50,541 bases of DNA. It comes from Bacillota bacterium. GTDB lineage: Bacteria > Bacillota_I > Bacilli_A > RF39 > UBA660. The position numbers and the translations under genes are program-made. This document shows, piece after piece, positions 7,910 through 50,541 of the stretch. The first letter of the stretch is position 1; each line of letters opens with the position of its first letter. The stretch spans positions 1-50,541 of the forward strand of contig SVAH01000006.1 of the NCBI GenBank assembly GCA_015059485.1, given 5' to 3'. A model generated the notes under the pieces. That model did no database searches. It was not told the origin of the DNA and saw nothing but the letters and a program-made list of their open reading frames with translations.

Positions 7910-8644
7910 TTAATTTTTATTTCTATCAACTATATTATTAATTATTTTATCTGGATTTTTAACAGTTAAATCAAATATGTATTCTTCATCTGTTAATTTA
8001 ATTGCTTCTTTTTTTAGTTTGCCTACTCTACCATAATAACTACTTTTAGAGCTATGGATATCACTACCTAATACAAAATATTTTCTTTCTTTTAATAATT
8101 TAATAAATAATCTTTTTGCTTTAGGTCCATACTTTCCACTAAGTGAATCTAAATTTCCCTGAAATAATATTCCCATTTCAAGGTACTTTTCTATCATATC
8201 ATTATCTTTTTGAAATATTTTATACCTTTCTGGATGTGCAAGAACTATTTTGGCACCCTTTAGTATAAGTTCATAAAATATATCCAAATCACAATTTAAT
8301 TTTTCTTCTAAAGGTATTTCTATTAACATATAACTTGAATTATTTAATGTATGTATTTTTCCTTTAATTATCTTAGATAATATATTATCTTGTATAAATA
8401 TTTCATTTCCTAAATAAAGTTTTACATCAATATTTCTTTCTATTAATTCTTTTTCTATTATTTCTAATTTTTCTTTTTTAGTTTTATTATCAGCCGCATA
8501 GAAACTATTATCTATATAATGAGGTGTTGCTATTATTTTAGTATAACCTGCATCCCTCATTTTTTCTATCATAGATATACTTTCTTCTAATGACTTTGAA
8601 CCATCATCTATTTCATTTATTATATGACTATGTACATCTATCAT
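7910..8644 (-). CDS. CpsB/CapC-type tyrosine-protein phosphatase (PHP domain)
   Basis: This manganese-dependent phosphatase removes phosphate from CpsD-type kinases. The PHP metal-binding motifs are visible: MIDVHSHIINEIDDGS at the N-terminus, TPHY (about 41-44), ILAHPERY in the middle and LGSDIHSS near residue 195. It is 244 residues, usual for the family. Its ATG overlaps the stop of kinase copy 1 (TAATG), so CpsC1-CpsD1-CpsB form one transcription unit. It is the only phosphatase present for two kinases. Confidence 0.9.
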   Translation of the reverse strand: MIDVHSHIINEIDDGSKSLEESISMIEKMRDAGYTKIIATPHYIDNSFYAADNKTKKEKLEIIEKELIERNIDVKLYLGNEIFIQDNILSKIIKGKIHTLNNSSYMLIEIPLEEKLNCDLDIFYELILKGAKIVLAHPERYKIFQKDNDMIEKYLEMGILFQGNLDSLSGKYGPKAKRLFIKLLKERKYFVLGSDIHSSKSSYYGRVGKLKKEAIKLTDEEYIFDLTVKNPDKIINNIVDRNKN

Positions 8645-9342
8645 TAATCTTTTGTATAATATCCTCCGTAATAGCCACCATAGTAGCCACCATAATAAGA
8701 ACTTGTATTCTTAATTGGAACTTTATTTAAGATAATACCTGCTATATTTACCTCTAATGCTTTTAAACTTTTTATAGTATTTTCTAAGAATTTCATTTTA
8801 GTATAATTTGAAGATGCTACTACTACTACCTCTTCAACATATTTTGTGAAAACTAATGAATCTGTAAGACCATTAATTGGTGTACCATCAAATATTATAA
8901 TATCAAAATCTTTAGATGCAGCTTTTATAAATTCTGCTGCATTATTACTATCTAGTAATTCTGATGGATTTGGTGGAACTGTTCCACGTGATATAAATGA
9001 TAAATTTTCTATTTTAGTACTTTTTATATAATCTTGATAATTTTTTGAATCATTATCTACTAAAAGATTTGAAAAACCTTTAGTATTAGATACTTTAAAT
9101 ATTTTATGAAGTCTTCCTAATCGTAGATCACTATCTACAAGTAATACTTTTAAATCTTTTTGAGCAAATGATATTGCTAAATTGGCACTTATAAAGCTTT
9201 TTCCTTCACCTTGTACGGAAGATGTTACAAGTATTGTTTTATTTTTCTTTAACTTAAGTGAAAATTGAATGTTAGTTCTTACTACACGAATAGCTTCAGA
9301 TATTGAAGACTTTGGATTTTTCTTTACTATTAACTCGTCCAT
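8644..9342 (-). CDS. CpsD/CapB-type tyrosine kinase, copy 1
   Basis: This 232-residue BY-kinase has Walker A SSVQGEGKS, Walker A' VDSDLRLGRLH and Walker B IIFDGTPINGLTD. The C-terminus is an exceptionally regular tyrosine tail, four YY pairs separated by GG (SSYYGGYYGGYYGGYYTKD), giving eight phosphorylation sites. The tail is encoded by a short in-frame DNA repeat at about 8656-8695, which could change length by slippage. It follows CpsC1 without a gap and overlaps CpsB by one base. Confidence 0.9.
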   Translation of the reverse strand: MDELIVKKNPKSSISEAIRVVRTNIQFSLKLKKNKTILVTSSVQGEGKSFISANLAISFAQKDLKVLLVDSDLRLGRLHKIFKVSNTKGFSNLLVDNDSKNYQDYIKSTKIENLSFISRGTVPPNPSELLDSNNAAEFIKAASKDFDIIIFDGTPINGLTDSLVFTKYVEEVVVVASSNYTKMKFLENTIKSLKALEVNIAGIILNKVPIKNTSSYYGGYYGGYYGGYYTKD

Positions 9343-10052
9343 TACTTTCTCACCTTTCTACTCTTTTTAGCGCTTCTTGTTGTATTATAATTTGGTATTG
9401 CCCCTAAAACAGGTACATCAAATTTATCTTCTAATTGTTCTACAGTTTTGATTGAAGTATCAAAATAATATATTACTGTAATTATTCCAAATGCCACTAC
9501 TAAACCAATAGCAATAAACAAAACAGAAGATTTTAAAATGCTCATATTAGATTTTACTTTTGGAACTCTTGCTGCATCAAGTACACTAACATTTGATACA
9601 TTATAGATATCTTTTACTTCATCACTAAATACTTCAGCTATTTTAGATACTATTTTATATGCTTTTTTAGGATCTTCATCAGATACTGTTATTCTAATAA
9701 CCTCTGTATCTGTAACTGATGAAACTGATACATGTGATGCTAATGTAGATATTTCATAATCTAATCTTAATTCTTTAATAACTTGTGATAAGACTTTTTC
9801 ACTTTTAATTATTTCTTGATAAGTAGTAACTAATTTTTGATTTATAGTTAATTCATTATTATCAATAGATTGTTCTTCATTATTAAGATTAAAACCAGCT
9901 AAAATTAATGTTGTTTTTGATTCATATTTTGGATGTTCTATACCTACTTTATAAACTAAGCCAATTGCAAGTGTTACAAATATAATAATAGCTATATATA
10001 ATATTTTACTTTTATAATAATCTAATAGCTCTTTTAAATTAATTTCTTCCAT
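9342..10052 (-). CDS. CpsC/Wzz-type chain-length and kinase-activator protein, copy 1
   Basis: The start is set at the ATG at 10052, preceded by GAAGGGGAAG. The longer frame to 10136 would run through the promoter. The 236-residue protein starts MEEINLKELLDYYKSK and has a first helix (about 18-38). An external domain follows, then a proline-containing DAARVPKVKSNM linker, a second helix and a basic cytoplasmic tail. It is paralogous to the 7157-7852 protein. It is expected to sit in the membrane, set polymer length and activate kinase copy 1. Confidence 0.87.
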   Translation of the reverse strand: MEEINLKELLDYYKSKILYIAIIIFVTLAIGLVYKVGIEHPKYESKTTLILAGFNLNNEEQSIDNNELTINQKLVTTYQEIIKSEKVLSQVIKELRLDYEISTLASHVSVSSVTDTEVIRITVSDEDPKKAYKIVSKIAEVFSDEVKDIYNVSNVSVLDAARVPKVKSNMSILKSSVLFIAIGLVVAFGIITVIYYFDTSIKTVEQLEDKFDVPVLGAIPNYNTTRSAKKSRKVRK

Positions 10053-44452: not shown

Positions 44453-44797
44453 AATAATATCTTATAAGCCATGTTCTGTACTCACAAATGAGCGGCAAAT
44501 ATTTATCTATCATAATTGATCCCTACATTGGTTCATTTTCCTTTGTAAAGCTCCCCTACCAAATTTGGGTTTCTCGCTTGCGGGGTTTACCACGTTCCAC
44601 CTAACTCGTTTCCAAGTTAACTCGTCTCTTTGGCACTTTTATACCTACTATAACCATTTAAGGTTATCTCGGAGCCGTTAGATTTCTCTACCTTAGGTTA
44701 TTTTTTCCCTAAGCACAAACACTACAGTCATCTCAGACTGTGCGAGCATGGACTTTCCTCTACATATAATTTATGCAGCATTTGCCCAGATATTATT
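44453..44797 (-). ncRNA. rnpB: RNase P RNA, type B
   Basis: The minus strand has the diagnostic GAGGAAAGTCCATGCTCGCAC near the 5' end and ACAGAACATGGCTTATAAG at the 3' end. Closing P1 strands are AATAATATCT and AGATATTATT (10 bp). The internal layout, including AAACCC and GGTAGGGGAGC elements, matches Bacillus-type RNase P RNA. It lies between gpsB and rodZ; the 5' end overlaps the gpsB stop by a few bases. The ribozyme matures tRNA 5' ends. Confidence 0.95.
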
Positions 44798-45209: not shown

Positions 45210-45620
45210 TTAACCATAGGTAACTTCATTTTGGTTAGCTGGTCTTATTGTTATATCTTCTAATAAAACTACATATCCACTTGCTTTATGTTCTTTTATA
45301 AATTTATTTAAAACATCACTTGAACAAGATTTAATCATTTTTGCAGTATTAGGAATTGGTACTAACATATTATAATGATTGCCTTATACTAATTCAAATT
45401 TTTCGTAATAAATAAAAATTTCTTTTACTATACCTTTTAATACAGATATATTTTTCCAATCATCTTCATTAGCATCATAAACATATTCTAATTCTTCAAT
45501 ATTAATTGAAGATATAATATTATTGGCACTAGTAACTAGCCAATTAATTGAATCTCCAATTTTAAATGGAATACCACAGCATTCCATTTGTCATAAATCA
45601 TAAAATACTTTTGTCTTCAT
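45210..45620 (-). pseudogene. Interrupted DUF6578-like gene with two in-frame stops
   Basis: One frame encodes MKTKVFYDL, TGA (45591-45593), QMECCGIPFKIGDSINWLV and onwards, TAA (45384-45386), GNHYNMLVPIPNTAKMI and onwards, ending LLEDITIRPANQNEVTYG. The TGA stands where DUF6578-like proteins have Trp (a WQxECCGxPF motif), which suggests mutation of TGG to TGA. The second stop separates the middle from the C-terminal part. The gene is therefore probably dead; no longer ORF covers it. Confidence 0.7.
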
Positions 45621-45623
45621 AGT

Positions 45624-45735
45624 CTACTTTCTTTCTAAAATACAAACAGTTTCTACATGCCTAGTATGGAGATGACGAACATGTCATTTGAACTCTATTG
45701 TTACATATAAGACCGAGTATTACGAACATATCATA
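45624..45735 (-). repeat. RlmD/RumA 3'-end remnant, copy C
   Basis: The minus strand ends HTRHVETVCILERK followed by a stop (45624-45626), the typical C-terminus of RlmD-type rRNA uracil methyltransferases. Upstream are two GAYATGTTC-like boxes 47 bp apart, the same spacing as in copy B. The remainder of the gene is absent. Confidence 0.7.
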
Positions 45736-45752
45736 ATATCTTAATCTTACGA

Positions 45753-46301
45753 TTACTTATTTTCTTCAAATGATAAATTAGGTTCTTTATCTAAATCGAT
45801 ACCATAAATTTCTTCATATATTCTTTGGACATCTAAAGATGTAGCTTTTTCTTTAGGTATTCCTAATAATTGGAGTGTATTATAGACTTCTTCTTCACTT
45901 ATTCCTTCAATTTCCAAATAAGTTGGTATCTTAGGCCATGTATCTATATCAACTTCCACGCCATTTAAATCATACTTAATTCTTTTATTTTCTTGAATTC
46001 CTCTAGGAGAGTACCCTAATTCACCTAATATTTCATTTGTGGCATTAAAATCACTTACTTCTATTTCAACTTCTCTTGTACCATCAATATTAGATGATTC
46101 TACATTCTTAATTGTAAGAGTAGTTTTTGAGCCATTTGTTCTCAATCGAATCCATTTGCTTGGAACAACTGGTTTAAAATCATAAACATATCTTTTTTGA
46201 AATACATCTTCTATTAATATCGCATTTAACTCTTTTAGTTTTGCTTGTATTTCATCCTTATCGATTTCTAACACTCTAACTTCATATTCAATTCGACTCA
46301 T
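45753..46301 (-). CDS. CYTH domain protein (triphosphate-tunnel type)
   Basis: This 182-residue protein starts at ATG 46301 (MSRIEYEVRVLEIDKDE) after GGAAGTGATATT. The N-terminal EYEVRV pattern, WIRLRTNGSKTTLTIK and VEIEVSDF plus a YLEIEGISEEEV segment are features of CYTH (class IV adenylate cyclase/thiamine triphosphatase-like) enzymes, which act on triphosphates using acidic tunnel residues. The substrate is unknown. It lies between the RlmD-tail copy C and the fic gene. Confidence 0.8.
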   Translation of the reverse strand: MSRIEYEVRVLEIDKDEIQAKLKELNAILIEDVFQKRYVYDFKPVVPSKWIRLRTNGSKTTLTIKNVESSNIDGTREVEIEVSDFNATNEILGELGYSPRGIQENKRIKYDLNGVEVDIDTWPKIPTYLEIEGISEEEVYNTLQLLGIPKEKATSLDVQRIYEEIYGIDLDKEPNLSFEENK

Positions 46302-46364
46302 AATATCACTTCCTACATCCATTATACCACATATCTCCAATATTTAATTACATTGCAAGATTAC

Positions 46365-46391
46365 TAAAAACAGAACACATTTGTGTTCTGT
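46365..46391 (-). terminator. Terminator after fic
   Basis: The perfect 10-bp stem ACAGAACACA / TGTGTTCTGT (46370-46391) with a 2-base loop is followed by TTTTT on the minus strand. Confidence 0.85.
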
Positions 46392-46393
46392 CA

Positions 46394-47389
46394 TTAAATT
46401 TTGTAATACATTTGATTTTTACTTGTTGGTTTGTCTGGAATTGTTAATGAAACAACTCCTTCTTTTATCGCCGGATCAAGATATGTTGATCTTAAAGTTT
46501 CTTTTGATTTAATGCCTAATTTATCCATTATTTCATTTGCAGTCATCGGAACATTATATTCCATAACATTAAGTAGTTTGTTAATATTTATTCCTGTTTC
46601 AGTTATTGGAGTTGAGCTAGTTCTAATTGCTTCATCTAAAACTTTATCAATCATATTCAACATAAATTCAATAAATTCAGTAGACTCTACATTGTGATTG
46701 CAATTATTGATAGCTTTATAGTAATCATCCTGATATTTATGTATTTGTGATTCTATTGGTAAGTATTCAAATATATCCTTCCATTTAGATAATAAAATAT
46801 TTTGCCATAATCTAACTGTTCTACCATTTCCATCTGAAAAAGGATGAATAAATACAAATTCATAATGAAAAATGGATGATAAAATTAATGGGTGAATTTC
46901 ATCATTATTCTTTTTTATCCATTCAAATAACTGTTTCATTAATCCATCAACTTGTTCAGGTGGTGGGCAAACATGAATACAATTACCTTTTTCATCAAAA
47001 ACTCCTTCATTACCTTTTCTAAATTCACCAGATTCTTCAACTGTTAAGTATGTCATAATGCCATGAACTTTTTTTAAATCATTTATAGAATAAACATCAA
47101 CTTTATTAATCATTTCATAAGCATTATATGCATTTTTTACTTCTTGGATTTCTTTTTGAGGTCCTATAACTGTTCTACCAGCTATAACATCTTTTACTTG
47201 TCCTAATGATAATGAGTTTGCTTCAATAGCTAATGATGAGTGAATAGATCTAATTCTATTATTTCTTCTTAATACTGGCATTTTGTTAAAATTAGTATAA
47301 TTATCTAATTTACCAAGCTTTTCCATTATACTAGATACATAATCTAACATTTTATTTGTAATAGTAAATGGAGGTTTATAATCGTTCAT
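46394..47389 (-). CDS. Fic family protein
   Basis: This 331-residue protein starts at ATG 47389 behind AGAGGTGATT. The Fic core motif HPFSDGNGRTVR (182-193) is complete, so AMP transfer (or another nucleotide/phosphate transfer) to a protein hydroxyl is likely. An inhibitory-helix motif of the class II type, SLAIEAN (52-58), lies N-terminal. A C-terminal winged-helix-like segment (TANEIMDKLGIKSKETLRS) suggests DNA binding. A strong promoter and three 11-bp repeats lie upstream. Confidence 0.9.
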   Translation of the reverse strand: MNDYKPPFTITNKMLDYVSSIMEKLGKLDNYTNFNKMPVLRRNNRIRSIHSSLAIEANSLSLGQVKDVIAGRTVIGPQKEIQEVKNAYNAYEMINKVDVYSINDLKKVHGIMTYLTVEESGEFRKGNEGVFDEKGNCIHVCPPPEQVDGLMKQLFEWIKKNNDEIHPLILSSIFHYEFVFIHPFSDGNGRTVRLWQNILLSKWKDIFEYLPIESQIHKYQDDYYKAINNCNHNVESTEFIEFMLNMIDKVLDEAIRTSSTPITETGININKLLNVMEYNVPMTANEIMDKLGIKSKETLRSTYLDPAIKEGVVSLTIPDKPTSKNQMYYKI

Positions 47390-47417
47390 TAAAATCACCT
47401 CTAATTCTTATGTTATT

Positions 47418-47446
47418 ATTATACTACATATATATATTTTTATCAA
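47418..47446 (-). promoter_or_regulatory. fic promoter
   Basis: TTGATA (47441-47446), 17 bases, TATAAT (47418-47423). Confidence 0.75.
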
Positions 47447-47451
47447 TATAT

Positions 47452-47484
47452 CTTGCTTAATTCTTGCTTAATTCTTGCATAATT
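47452..47484 (-). repeat. Three 11-bp direct repeats upstream of fic promoter
   Basis: CTTGCTTAATT twice, then CTTGCATAATT on the plus strand, contiguous and directly before the -35. An 11-bp phase equals one helical turn, fitting cooperative binding of a regulator on one face. Confidence 0.6.
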
Positions 47485-47502
47485 ACAATGTGTTTTTATT
47501 AT

Positions 47503-47538
47503 ATATAAAAACTAGATGATAACAAAATCATCTAGTTT
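47503..47538 (-). terminator. Terminator after the 47596 gene
   Basis: The 12-bp stem AAACTAGATGAT / ATCATCTAGTTT (47509-47538) is followed by a T-rich run on the minus strand. Confidence 0.75.
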
Positions 47539-47595
47539 AAATGTTCGGAAATTCTTAATCTTCAGATTATTTTAGCAAAACATAATTTTTAAATA

Positions 47596-48015
47596 TCACA
47601 ATGTCGAAATAAAACTTAATAATCTATTTTTTTCTTCCGTATTAGTTAAAAAGTATATAGAATTGCTCTCTAATATATCTTTTATAAACTTTTTATCATT
47701 CTTTTCTAATAGTTTATCTACAACATATTTTTGATCTAATTGATTATTTAGTGTACTAAAATCATTACAATAATCTAAGAACCCTAATAACAACTCAATA
47801 TCTCCTTTATCAATAAAAAAATCTATTATTTTATTTCTGTTATAATCCGAGTAAATAGAAACTAAACTTATCAAAGCATATGAATTGTCATCATTAATTA
47901 ATTTTAAAACTAAATCATCAAATTCATCATTAGATAATTTTGTAATTAGTGTATAAAAAGGTCCTTCATTACATTGTTTTATAATTTTTTCCTCTTTATC
48001 AGTATAATTACTCAT
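47596..48015 (-). CDS. Unknown small helical protein
   Basis: This 139-residue, Asn/Asp/Leu-rich soluble protein has repeated helical segments (NDEFDDLVLKLINDDNSYAL, KKFIKDILESNSIYFL). No family is recognised and there is no signal or membrane segment. AAAGGAG precedes the ATG. It lies in the accessory region, between the RlmD-tail copy B and fic. Confidence 0.5.
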   Translation of the reverse strand: MSNYTDKEEKIIKQCNEGPFYTLITKLSNDEFDDLVLKLINDDNSYALISLVSIYSDYNRNKIIDFFIDKGDIELLLGFLDYCNDFSTLNNQLDQKYVVDKLLEKNDKKFIKDILESNSIYFLTNTEEKNRLLSFISTL

Positions 48016-48139
48016 CTTTTAATCTCCTTTAACAAATCATATTTTTTTTGAAAGAATATAGTATATGGAAACATGTCATATACATACTATATAAAAAAAT
48101 TGCGATATTTTTTTGCATTTTTTTCTATTTTTTAATTTT

Positions 48140-48256
48140 TTAGCCAACTAAACGTTCAAGAACCATAACTGTTTCTACATGCCTAGTATGCGGTCAACGA
48201 ACATATCAATTTATCTCCACTGTTACCTATATGTATGCGGATAAAGAACATGTTAC
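48140..48256 (-). repeat. RlmD/RumA 3'-end remnant, copy B
   Basis: The frame ends PHTRHVETVMVLERLVG with a stop (48140-48142). Upstream, the minus strand has GATATGTTC followed by a 5-base insertion (GTTGA) before CCGCATACTAGG, and an ACATGTTC box 47 bp further on. It is homologous to copies A and C. The rest of the gene is absent. Positions 48257-48316 show no further feature. Confidence 0.7.
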
Positions 48257-48316
48257 TCTATTTATATCAACATTATACCACGTATAATTTTTTAGCATCG
48301 TAGTTTTATTTTTTAG

Positions 48317-49315
48317 TTATTTTTCTAAATTATAATTCAACACTTTTGTTAATTTTTTTTCTTGATTATTCTTTACTATTTTTTCTCCAAAATTCATAAA
48401 GAATTCATCTACTTCTTTTACTGTAGTTTTTTCATCAACAGGATATCTTAAAACAACAGTTTTAAATCTACAATGTTCTACATTTAAATCATAATTGTTT
48501 AATGAATTGTTTCCAAATAAGATTACTTTATTCTCATCATAATCTTTTTCACCTGTTTGATAATTTATAGTTAAACCTTCAAGTATTTTTGAATGATCAT
48601 AATCATGTCCCAAAGCCACTTCTCTTGGAACATCTATATATTCATATAATTTAACATAATCATCATCATTCTTAACAGCATCTACAAAGTATTGTTTATT
48701 AGTACTATTTAACCCATTCCAATCTAACATAATCCAGGCATATCCATTACCAATAACCCATTTATCATCATGACCTATATATAACTTGTTTTCATCAACT
48801 GGTTCATCTTTACTTTCAACATTATATCTATTAGCACTAGACATTAAAGTATTAACACCATTAGACGTTAAATATTTACAAGCATTTCTAACTGGTTTTT
48901 CAATACATAATCTTTGCATAACTTCATCATCTAGATTTATTTGCCCATCATATGGAAAAATGTCTATATCCTTCACATATTCACAAGTTTCATTTTTATT
49001 AATAAAATCATTTATGAATTTATCACTATTTGAAACATTTACCAATTTGCCTCTACTAGTAATAAAAATAATTGCATCCCTTATAACTCTATTTAAAGTA
49101 TCTTCTGATAATTCTTTACATACTGAAGAATCTGAAATAAGTGTTATAAATCTATCATCAGCATATAAAACACCATCTTTCTCTATTGTTCTAGTACAAT
49201 AAGGTAATGTATATAAAACACTATGATAATAACCATCTTCATTACATTTTATTATGAATTCTAGAATACCATTTGAAGTATTAATTGTAATTGAACTCTC
49301 ATCATATTTACTCAT
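48317..49315 (-). CDS. Unknown protein, 332 residues
   Basis: This soluble protein is rich in Asp, Asn and Tyr. It starts MSKYDESSITINTSNGILEF and has an N-terminal beta-rich stretch, FPYDGQINLDDEVMQRLC and a C-terminal charged end. No motif, signal or membrane segment is recognised. AAAGGGGG precedes the ATG. It lies between RlmD-tail copies A and B in the accessory region. Confidence 0.5.
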   Translation of the reverse strand: MSKYDESSITINTSNGILEFIIKCNEDGYYHSVLYTLPYCTRTIEKDGVLYADDRFITLISDSSVCKELSEDTLNRVIRDAIIFITSRGKLVNVSNSDKFINDFINKNETCEYVKDIDIFPYDGQINLDDEVMQRLCIEKPVRNACKYLTSNGVNTLMSSANRYNVESKDEPVDENKLYIGHDDKWVIGNGYAWIMLDWNGLNSTNKQYFVDAVKNDDDYVKLYEYIDVPREVALGHDYDHSKILEGLTINYQTGEKDYDENKVILFGNNSLNNYDLNVEHCRFKTVVLRYPVDEKTTVKEVDEFFMNFGEKIVKNNQEKKLTKVLNYNLEK

Positions 49316-49376
49316 AAAAAACCCCCTTTTTTTTAAGTGTTTAATACAATATCACATTATCAAAAAAAAGTCAAAA

Positions 49377-49400
49377 AAAAGATGTCTTTTAAACATCTTT
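49377..49400 (-). terminator. Terminator at RlmD-tail copy A
   Basis: AAAGATGT / ACATCTTT around the stop of the tail, with a T run downstream on the minus strand. Confidence 0.6.
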
Positions 49401-49451
49401 CCTTTCTAAAACCATAACTGTTTCAACATGGTATGTATAAGAAAACATATC
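49389..49451 (-). repeat. RlmD/RumA 3'-end remnant, copy A
   Basis: The frame reads DMFSYTYHVETVMVLERKDV with a stop at 49389-49391, an uninterrupted match to the C-terminal end of RlmD-type methyltransferases. It is cut by a stop just upstream. It is the longest clean coding tail of the three. Confidence 0.7.
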
Positions 49452-49480: not shown

Positions 49481-49762
49481 TTACTCACTATACATATACT
49501 CTATTAATGATGAATCTTCACCTAACTTATTAGCAAAATCATCGCCTAATTTTTCTTTTAAAATCTCAAATTTTCTTATAAAATCATCTAAAGGATATAA
49601 AAACAAATCTAATGATGTTAAGAATAAATCTTTTGCGTAATATATACCATTATTTTCTAGGTATTTTAATATTTTTAACACATTTTCTGAATCTATTTGT
49701 CTAATTAAACTTTCATCAAAATTTTCTTTTAATATTTTAATATCTATTTCATCTAAATTCAT
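49481..49762 (-). CDS. Unknown small helical protein
   Basis: This 93-residue protein starts MNLDEIDIKILKENFDESLI and is predicted to be all helical, with FLYPLDDFIRKFEILKEKLG and DDFANKLGEDSSLIE segments. This recalls helical-repeat proteins such as mTERF repeats, but similarity is only general. It overlaps the upstream repeat protein (ATGA) and is probably co-expressed with it. GGAGG lies before the ATG. Confidence 0.5.
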   Translation of the reverse strand: MNLDEIDIKILKENFDESLIRQIDSENVLKILKYLENNGIYYAKDLFLTSLDLFLYPLDDFIRKFEILKEKLGDDFANKLGEDSSLIEYMYSE

Positions 49763-50541
49763 TTTGATATTCCTCCATTTATTTTTTTTGCATTTTCTTC
49801 ATATGTATATTTTTGAATAAGTTCTTTAATATCTATATTATATTTTTTCTTTAATAATCCCGGTTGCTTTCCAAAAATTGGATTTAACTTGCCATCTATA
49901 ATCAAAGGTAAATTATTTTCTTTCAAGTATTGTATTAATGCATAATTTTGTGAAGGAGAAAATAATAAGAATGATGTATTTAAAAAGCCATCAATATTAT
50001 TTTCTTCAGCCAATCTAAATAATAATTGTAATTTTGAAATCATTGATTTACTCTTAGCTACTATTGAAGAAGTAAGTAAACTTGAATATCTCTTATCATT
50101 CCAACAATCCATTTGCAATAATTCTTGTATCTCTTCTAACTTGGCATGTGCTAATGTTGTTGATGTAAATAATTCTGGATGTTCTTTAAATTCTGGGCTT
50201 TGGATTATCTTTTGTATCTCTTCTAACTTGGCATGTGCTAATGTTTCTGATGTAAATAATTCTGGGTGTTCTTTAAATTCTAGGCTTTGGATTATCTTTT
50301 GTATTTCTTCTAACTTGGCATGTGCTAATGTTTCTGATGTAAACATTTCTGGATGTTCTTTAAATTCTGGGCTTTGAATTATCTTTTGTATCTCTTCTAA
50401 CTTGGCATGTGCTAATGTTTGTGATGTAAATAATTCTAGGTGTTCTTTAAATTCTGGGCTTTGGATTATCTTTTGTATTTCTTCTAACTTGGCATGTGCT
50501 AATGTTTCTGATGTAAATAATTCTGGATGTTCTTTAAATTC
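49759..50541 (-). CDS. Tandem-repeat protein, N-terminus beyond window
   Basis: The frame is open to the window edge, so the start lies outside. Five near-identical 29-residue units fill about 50107-50541, each with an EFKEHPELFTSETLAHAKLE core followed by an EIQKIIQSP end. The fifth deviates at its C-terminus (EIQELLQMD). A unique C-terminal part (about 115 residues) contains SFLLFSPSQNYALIQYLKEN and GKLNPIFGKQPGLLKKKYNI. The units look like paired helices forming a solenoid. No family is recognised; the possible resemblance to mTERF- or TAL-like repeats is only a guess. Confidence 0.7.
   Translation of the reverse strand, partial: EFKEHPELFTSETLAHAKLEEIQKIIQSPEFKEHLELFTSQTLAHAKLEEIQKIIQSPEFKEHPEMFTSETLAHAKLEEIQKIIQSLEFKEHPELFTSETLAHAKLEEIQKIIQSPEFKEHPELFTSTTLAHAKLEEIQELLQMDCWNDKRYSSLLTSSIVAKSKSMISKLQLLFRLAEENNIDGFLNTSFLLFSPSQNYALIQYLKENNLPLIIDGKLNPIFGKQPGLLKKKYNIDIKELIQKYTYEENAKKINGGISK
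50107..50541 (-). repeat. 87-bp tandem repeat array
   Basis: Five in-frame copies of an 87-bp unit, with only scattered substitutions, continuing to the window edge. The near identity at DNA level suggests recent expansion and possible copy-number variation. Confidence 0.85.

Follow-up and report, generated by a model that had tools for sequence, protein, structure and literature searches.

Duplicated rlmD gene ends as probable joints of a mobile gene-cassette array in an uncultured Bacilli genome

The locus behind rlmD in this genome raises the question of why the end of an rRNA methyltransferase gene should recur several times without the rest of the gene, with unrelated small genes in between. 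The original prediction described three such tails on the minus strand and took them for att scars of successive integrations. The window analysed here, a stretch of 50,541 bp, comes from a contig of 76,143 bp in a draft genome of 1.4 Mb (74% complete; genome label G000). The complete rlmD gene is found a short way past the window, at contig 52618-53814 on the minus strand, and encodes 398 aa with the C-terminus ...DMFSYTYHCESITILERR before the stop codon. All three tails were found where they had been placed, each with a stop codon as read from the sequence, but the true number is four, the fourth lying outside the window at contig 51962. The four stand 3' of the intact gene and on its strand, and the 20-nt tail core CATACTAGGCATGTNGAAAC has no further match in the assembly when up to 3 mismatches are allowed. 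Copies B and C were confirmed to have the two RATATGTTC boxes first noted there, which are spaced by about 47 bp, and the fourth copy has them too.

Site A (49389..49451, minus strand) is a hybrid. Its left half (49451-49431) is identical to the genome's own rlmD (21/21 nt), and its right half (49430-49398) agrees at 32/33 nt with the rlmD ends of other array-bearing genera; the stretch 49430-49389 reads ...HVETVMVLERKDV and has its stop codon at 49389. An rlmD-type terminator, AAAGATGTTTAAAAGACATCTTTTTTT (49371..49400, minus strand), follows the tail, and the same block stands behind rlmD in G171, G487 and G501. Site B (48140..48256, minus strand) consists of two RAYATGTTC units, the left half CCGCATACTAGG and the rlmD tail HVETVMVLERLVG with its stop, which at 48181-48140 reads PHTRHVETVMVLERLVG. 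Site C (45624..45735, minus strand) likewise has two RAYATGTTC units, followed by the left half ATACTAGG and the tail HVETVCILERK with its stop (45659-45624).

Comparing the tails with the intact gene of the same genome, as had been suggested, gave a split answer. Only site A has an rlmD-like left half, the other three tails matching the own rlmD at 7-8/21 nt. For the right halves (33 nt from the HVE codons) the rlmD ends of other genera fit better than the own end, which ranks between 9 and 32 of 40 for the tails. A poor rank of the own end is expected if incoming cassettes bring their own in-frame tail and displace the old one. On the same condition the hybrid pattern fits the outcome of a reciprocal exchange at the HVE codons. 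The tails, being in frame and ending in a stop codon, would be in keeping with selection for a working RlmD end. From hybrid site A together with the foreign tails it may be inferred that rlmD exchanged its C-terminus at this target. These comparisons also bear on the idea that the rlmD end was simply duplicated by homologous recombination or replication slippage, with no site-specific enzyme. The tails are indeed direct repeats of small size, and arrays are likely to undergo homologous exchange as a side process; as the main cause, however, duplication is very improbable, as three of the tails have a left half that is not rlmD and the right halves are closer to other genera than to the own gene.

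A second kind of site stands between the cassettes. This site, for which we coin the name attX, is a 22-bp inverted repeat, TCGNAAKATTAAGATATTNCGA. With up to 2 mismatches its pattern gave about 105 matches against 3 for the reversed pattern in 50 genomes, which had partly been picked for having arrays. Among the fetched loci, 82% of 77 attX sites lie at most 45 nt after a stop codon of the same direction, compared with 4.5% of random positions. In an alignment of 88 sites, where the conservation of the centre is imposed by the search pattern, conservation extends to positions 1-3 and 21-22, which are largely complementary. A variant, attX' (TCGNAAAATAGTAATATTNCGA), has the same arms and another centre. 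In G171, G487 and G501 it stands between the rlmD terminator and the promoter-like box that belongs to the next gene; none was found at the rlmD sites of the present genome.

Joints between modules consist of attX after a stop codon, of a block made of a left half, an rlmD tail and a terminator, or of both. In the block type the left half has the form RATATGTTC...CATACTAGG and is followed by the in-frame rlmD tail, the terminator and, in several genomes, attX'. attX is missing from some joints, and there are several types of left half. Where cassettes are shared between genomes, the identity breaks are in many cases no more than about 30 nt from an attX centre, and in some cases 0-12 nt, which is a further point against duplication of the rlmD end without a site-specific enzyme. 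A phage origin was considered and rejected: the core and attX had no match in IMG/VR, and site C had none in phage or plasmid records.

The array extends from rlmD to a conserved block of gpsB, RNase P RNA, rodZ and pgsA. The distance between rlmD and this block is about 7.4 kb here and about 2 kb in the relative G090, where synteny is kept. The modules behind rlmD mostly hold one gene each, with its own promoter-like box and in the direction of rlmD; all features below are on the minus strand. The module nearest rlmD in the window is a two-gene cassette common to G338 (92-93% nt identity), made up of a gene for a 692-aa repeat protein (49759-51837, extending past the window end at 50541) and a 93-aa gene (49481..49762). 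The repeat protein contains near-identical 29-aa repeats (EFKEHPELFTSETLAHAKLEEIQKIIQSP) and has 692 aa in G000 and 633 aa in G338; it is partly N in the contig. Between sites A and B lies a cassette gene of 332 aa (48317..49315) that has no Pfam or PADLOC match. Then follows a 139-aa gene (47596..48015), which in G171 is the first cassette behind rlmD at 95.6% nt identity over 504 bp; this identity stops at an attX-like site with 3 mismatches (47545..47566) after the gene. The next cassette gene is of the Fic family (46394..47398; PADLOC SoFic), and is separated from a CYTH-domain gene (45753..46340) by a terminator and, behind it, a right half-site of attX' type (46350..46370), partly read from the sequence. 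Directly 3' of the CYTH stop codon is an attX with 1 mismatch, TCGTAAGATTAAGATATTATGA (45731..45752). A broken DUF6578-like gene (45384..45587) forms the last module before the conserved block. The class B RNase P RNA (44460-44793 of the window, minus strand) is placed directly behind the array, beside a gpsB/DivIVA-like gene, and was the sole match of an Rfam search. No conjugation genes were seen at the rlmD locus, and the module genes in the window have no Pfam match for an integrase or a conjugation module.

To see how far such arrays extend, we searched the core pattern in 386 genomes of the family and then in 385 of the order, two sets that overlap, setting aside identical core matches in G270 and G493 that are unlike the site. 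Arrays occur in few genomes and genera. Other genera of the family have one to seven tails behind rlmD; an intact rlmD followed by further tails is present in G171, G338, G193, G501 and G487, and in G232, G266 and G300 rlmD and a tail stand close to contig ends. In about 45 rlmD loci scanned with a protein profile of the RlmD C-terminus, extra tails with a full score were located only 3' of rlmD and on the same strand; few other matches passed the low cut-off, and these were clearly weaker (the L079 sequence is reversed). The same scan revealed tails of other types in L022, L027, L030, L059, L079 and L089. Across the arrays the tails are in frame, and their C-termini vary while staying rlmD-like. 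Seven joints lie within about 8 kb of the G338 array, mostly with one gene between them, in the order GNAT, S66-like peptidase, HAM1-like, NUDIX, His-phosphatase plus repeat protein, NUDIX and NUDIX (names assigned by eye from the sequence except where based on Pfam). The genus g38 is variable, as tails are found in G171, G338 and G266 and none was found in G038.

Individual cassettes recur in several genera, where their order differs. Shared cassettes are 82-97% identical across genera, compared with 65-70% for rlmD itself, and a 247-aa GNAT cassette recurs in G171, G338, G487, G478, G310, G501 and G013. Among the array loci there were 88 cross-genome alignments above 80% identity and 200 bp; in many cases these are overlapping matches from a single repeat protein. 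All genomes are drafts in which contigs often end inside these arrays, hence the system is easily missed in draft genomes. Circular cassette forms were not seen in them.

The arrays are not confined to rlmD. attX is also found in arrays at the 5' end of rbgA, where heads of that gene (MNENKTNINW) are repeated, each after a single gene: 7 in G232 (L128, G232:C6) and 11 in the present genome (L170, G000:C4:58000-72000), with further duplicated heads in L223 and L227. A pair of large serine recombinases is located immediately upstream of rbgA in G000:C4 (L031:13808-17046). Besides rlmD and rbgA there are at least two further duplicated gene tails with terminators, and the duplicated ends stand behind attX or before attX'. 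A duplicated end reading ..QAAIKAKKN with its stop, followed by a GACTAG..CTAGTC terminator, precedes attX' in L136, L168, L172 and L174. As ends of other genes are duplicated at attX and attX', rlmD seems to be one of several docking points. Some anchor and gene names come from sequence reading alone.

Which enzyme might move the cassettes? No recombinase was found inside any rlmD array examined, and among relatives of the known recombinases of these genomes the fetched rlmD loci contained only one, a serine recombinase of G060 at a distance of about 6 kb from rlmD. The present genome has three tyrosine recombinases, of which two score as XerD and XerC and the third adjoins a type I restriction locus. 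G171, with three tails, gave two tyrosine recombinases, both of XerC/XerD size, and one fragment of a serine recombinase, with no complete serine recombinase in 93% of the genome. Xer/dif modules, flanked by XerC/XerD sites, may be considered in view of these enzymes of G171; the array sites do not resemble the Firmicutes dif, but the dif of this lineage may be another one. A family of tyrosine integrases with Pfam Phage_integrase and SAM-like N-terminal domains, judged by eye to be Tn916-like, is accompanied by a Mob_Pre relaxase; the pair lies next to attX in G338 and G013 and close to attX' in G493. In two genera the integrase stands alone directly behind secA (G013, L228:2973-4337; G300, L111). 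Further, one clade of serine recombinases occurs on attX-bearing contigs of G000, G171 and G300; its nearest named models are CcrB/CcrC, at 150 bits against a cut-off of 900. We regard the Tn916-like tyrosine integrases (in G013, L228:2973-4337 and 8449-9729) and the CcrB/C-like large serine recombinase (in G300, L216:5484-7115) as candidate enzymes. The latter is weakened as a general attX enzyme, since G013 and G459 have attX and gave no match to PF07508, the serine recombinase domain.

A rival reading is plain accretion, in which ICE/IME or SCC-like elements with a serine integrase would have entered at rlmD one after another and decayed there, leaving attL/attR tails and stray cargo (CIMEs). 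The comparison with streptococcal rum-gene elements was apt in this respect, as in streptococci rumA is a target of ICEs that have a single serine integrase and exchange the C-terminus of RumA, and CTn5 of C. difficile is also found at rumA (PMC4701971); the CcrB/C-like recombinases on array contigs and the resemblance of site A to a classic hybrid junction agree with it as well. Yet the single-gene modules with attX after the stop codon are shared singly between genera with differing order and anchors, neither conjugation genes nor an integrase are present at rlmD, and G171 combines its three tails with the lack of a complete serine recombinase described above. Accretion therefore appears unlikely. 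There is good support for the core of the original prediction, namely that site-specific integration occurred more than once at the 3' end of rlmD: the hybrid site, the foreign tails, the single-gene modules common to genera and the variable content behind rlmD. Its description as scars of decayed ICEs or other conjugative elements is not the best one, because the locus has no conjugation genes or recombinase and its modules are mostly single genes.

We suggest instead that the rlmD tails are probably joints of a mobile gene-cassette array. The presence of a second site, attX, just after stop codons points to an integron-like array with several anchor genes. With somewhat less assurance, and on balance, we favour a non-integron system spreading in this uncultured Bacilli order, in which single-gene cassettes with a 22-bp duplex-type attX after the stop are captured at housekeeping anchors (the rlmD 3' end, the rbgA 5' end and at least two more) and carry replacement anchor ends. 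A site-specific recombinase, encoded elsewhere in the genome or provided by another element, would act at the centre of attX and attX' and move single cassettes. Its other point of action would be the HVE codons of rlmD, which in the cassette come immediately after CATACTAGG, and there it would insert units; each incoming unit would give rlmD a new functional C-terminus and push the old tail to the far end, hence tails would accumulate. This two-level reading, attX exchange plus docking at rlmD, is an inference.

We found no account of such arrays in the open-access literature, subscription papers and preprints being outside this scope. The rumA ICEs and CTn5 share with them the target gene, near its 3' end, and the exchange of the RumA/RlmD C-terminus. 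Those are large conjugative elements in one copy with an integrase gene at the junction (PMC4701971), whereas here there are multiple tails, single-gene modules, no junction integrase and a preserved rlmD frame; no integrase overlapping the junction was found at the fetched rlmD loci, and no conjugation module among the module genes of the window. ICEs with tyrosine integrases are known to target the 5' end of rbgA (PMC4701971), which is duplicated in the second array that it anchors (G232, G000:C4); the ICEs are one large conjugative element, in contrast to the 7-11 rbgA heads between single genes. SCC, with its Ccr recombinases at rlmH, also accretes at the end of an rRNA methyltransferase gene, and the array-linked serine recombinase is nearest CcrB/CcrC, but its scores are far under the Ccr cut-offs, the rlmD arrays have no ccr genes at the target gene, and their modules are single genes with attX.

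The closest likeness is to integrons and CALIN, integrons having been reported in several phyla including Firmicutes (PMC8618304). Shared are the tandem single-gene cassettes in one orientation with one recombination site directly after each stop, cassettes that cross genera, an integrase that is often absent, and a content of GNAT, NUDIX and unknown genes. Nevertheless, a genuine integron or CALIN, having IntI and attC sites, is highly unlikely. No IntI-type integrase was found beside the array, and the tyrosine recombinases of this genome and of the attX arrays fall below the cut-offs, none of them being at rlmD; the non-Xer ones tested score 26-57 bits against integron-integrase cut-offs of 265-435, and Xer-type recombinases reach 155 bits but fit XerC/XerD models far better. 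In a folding test of the four rlmD sites three of four folded no better than shuffles, with z-scores of +1.2 to +1.6 in three and about -2 in one. Neither does attX fit the attC core GTTRRRY. As neither the integrase nor hairpin sites were found, we do not class the arrays as an integron. They differ further in that their sites are 22-bp inverted repeats of apparently duplex layout rather than folded attC hairpins, their cassettes have their own promoter-like box and often a terminator, and the arrays are attached to housekeeping genes instead of intI-attI. Integrons are the known bacterial means of stocking and shuffling single-gene cassettes; this family of uncultured Bacilli with small genomes appears to do likewise with another site and probably another enzyme, conserved gene ends serving as docking points. 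If true, this would be a second cassette economy, and it would explain why gene content varies behind rlmD and rbgA.
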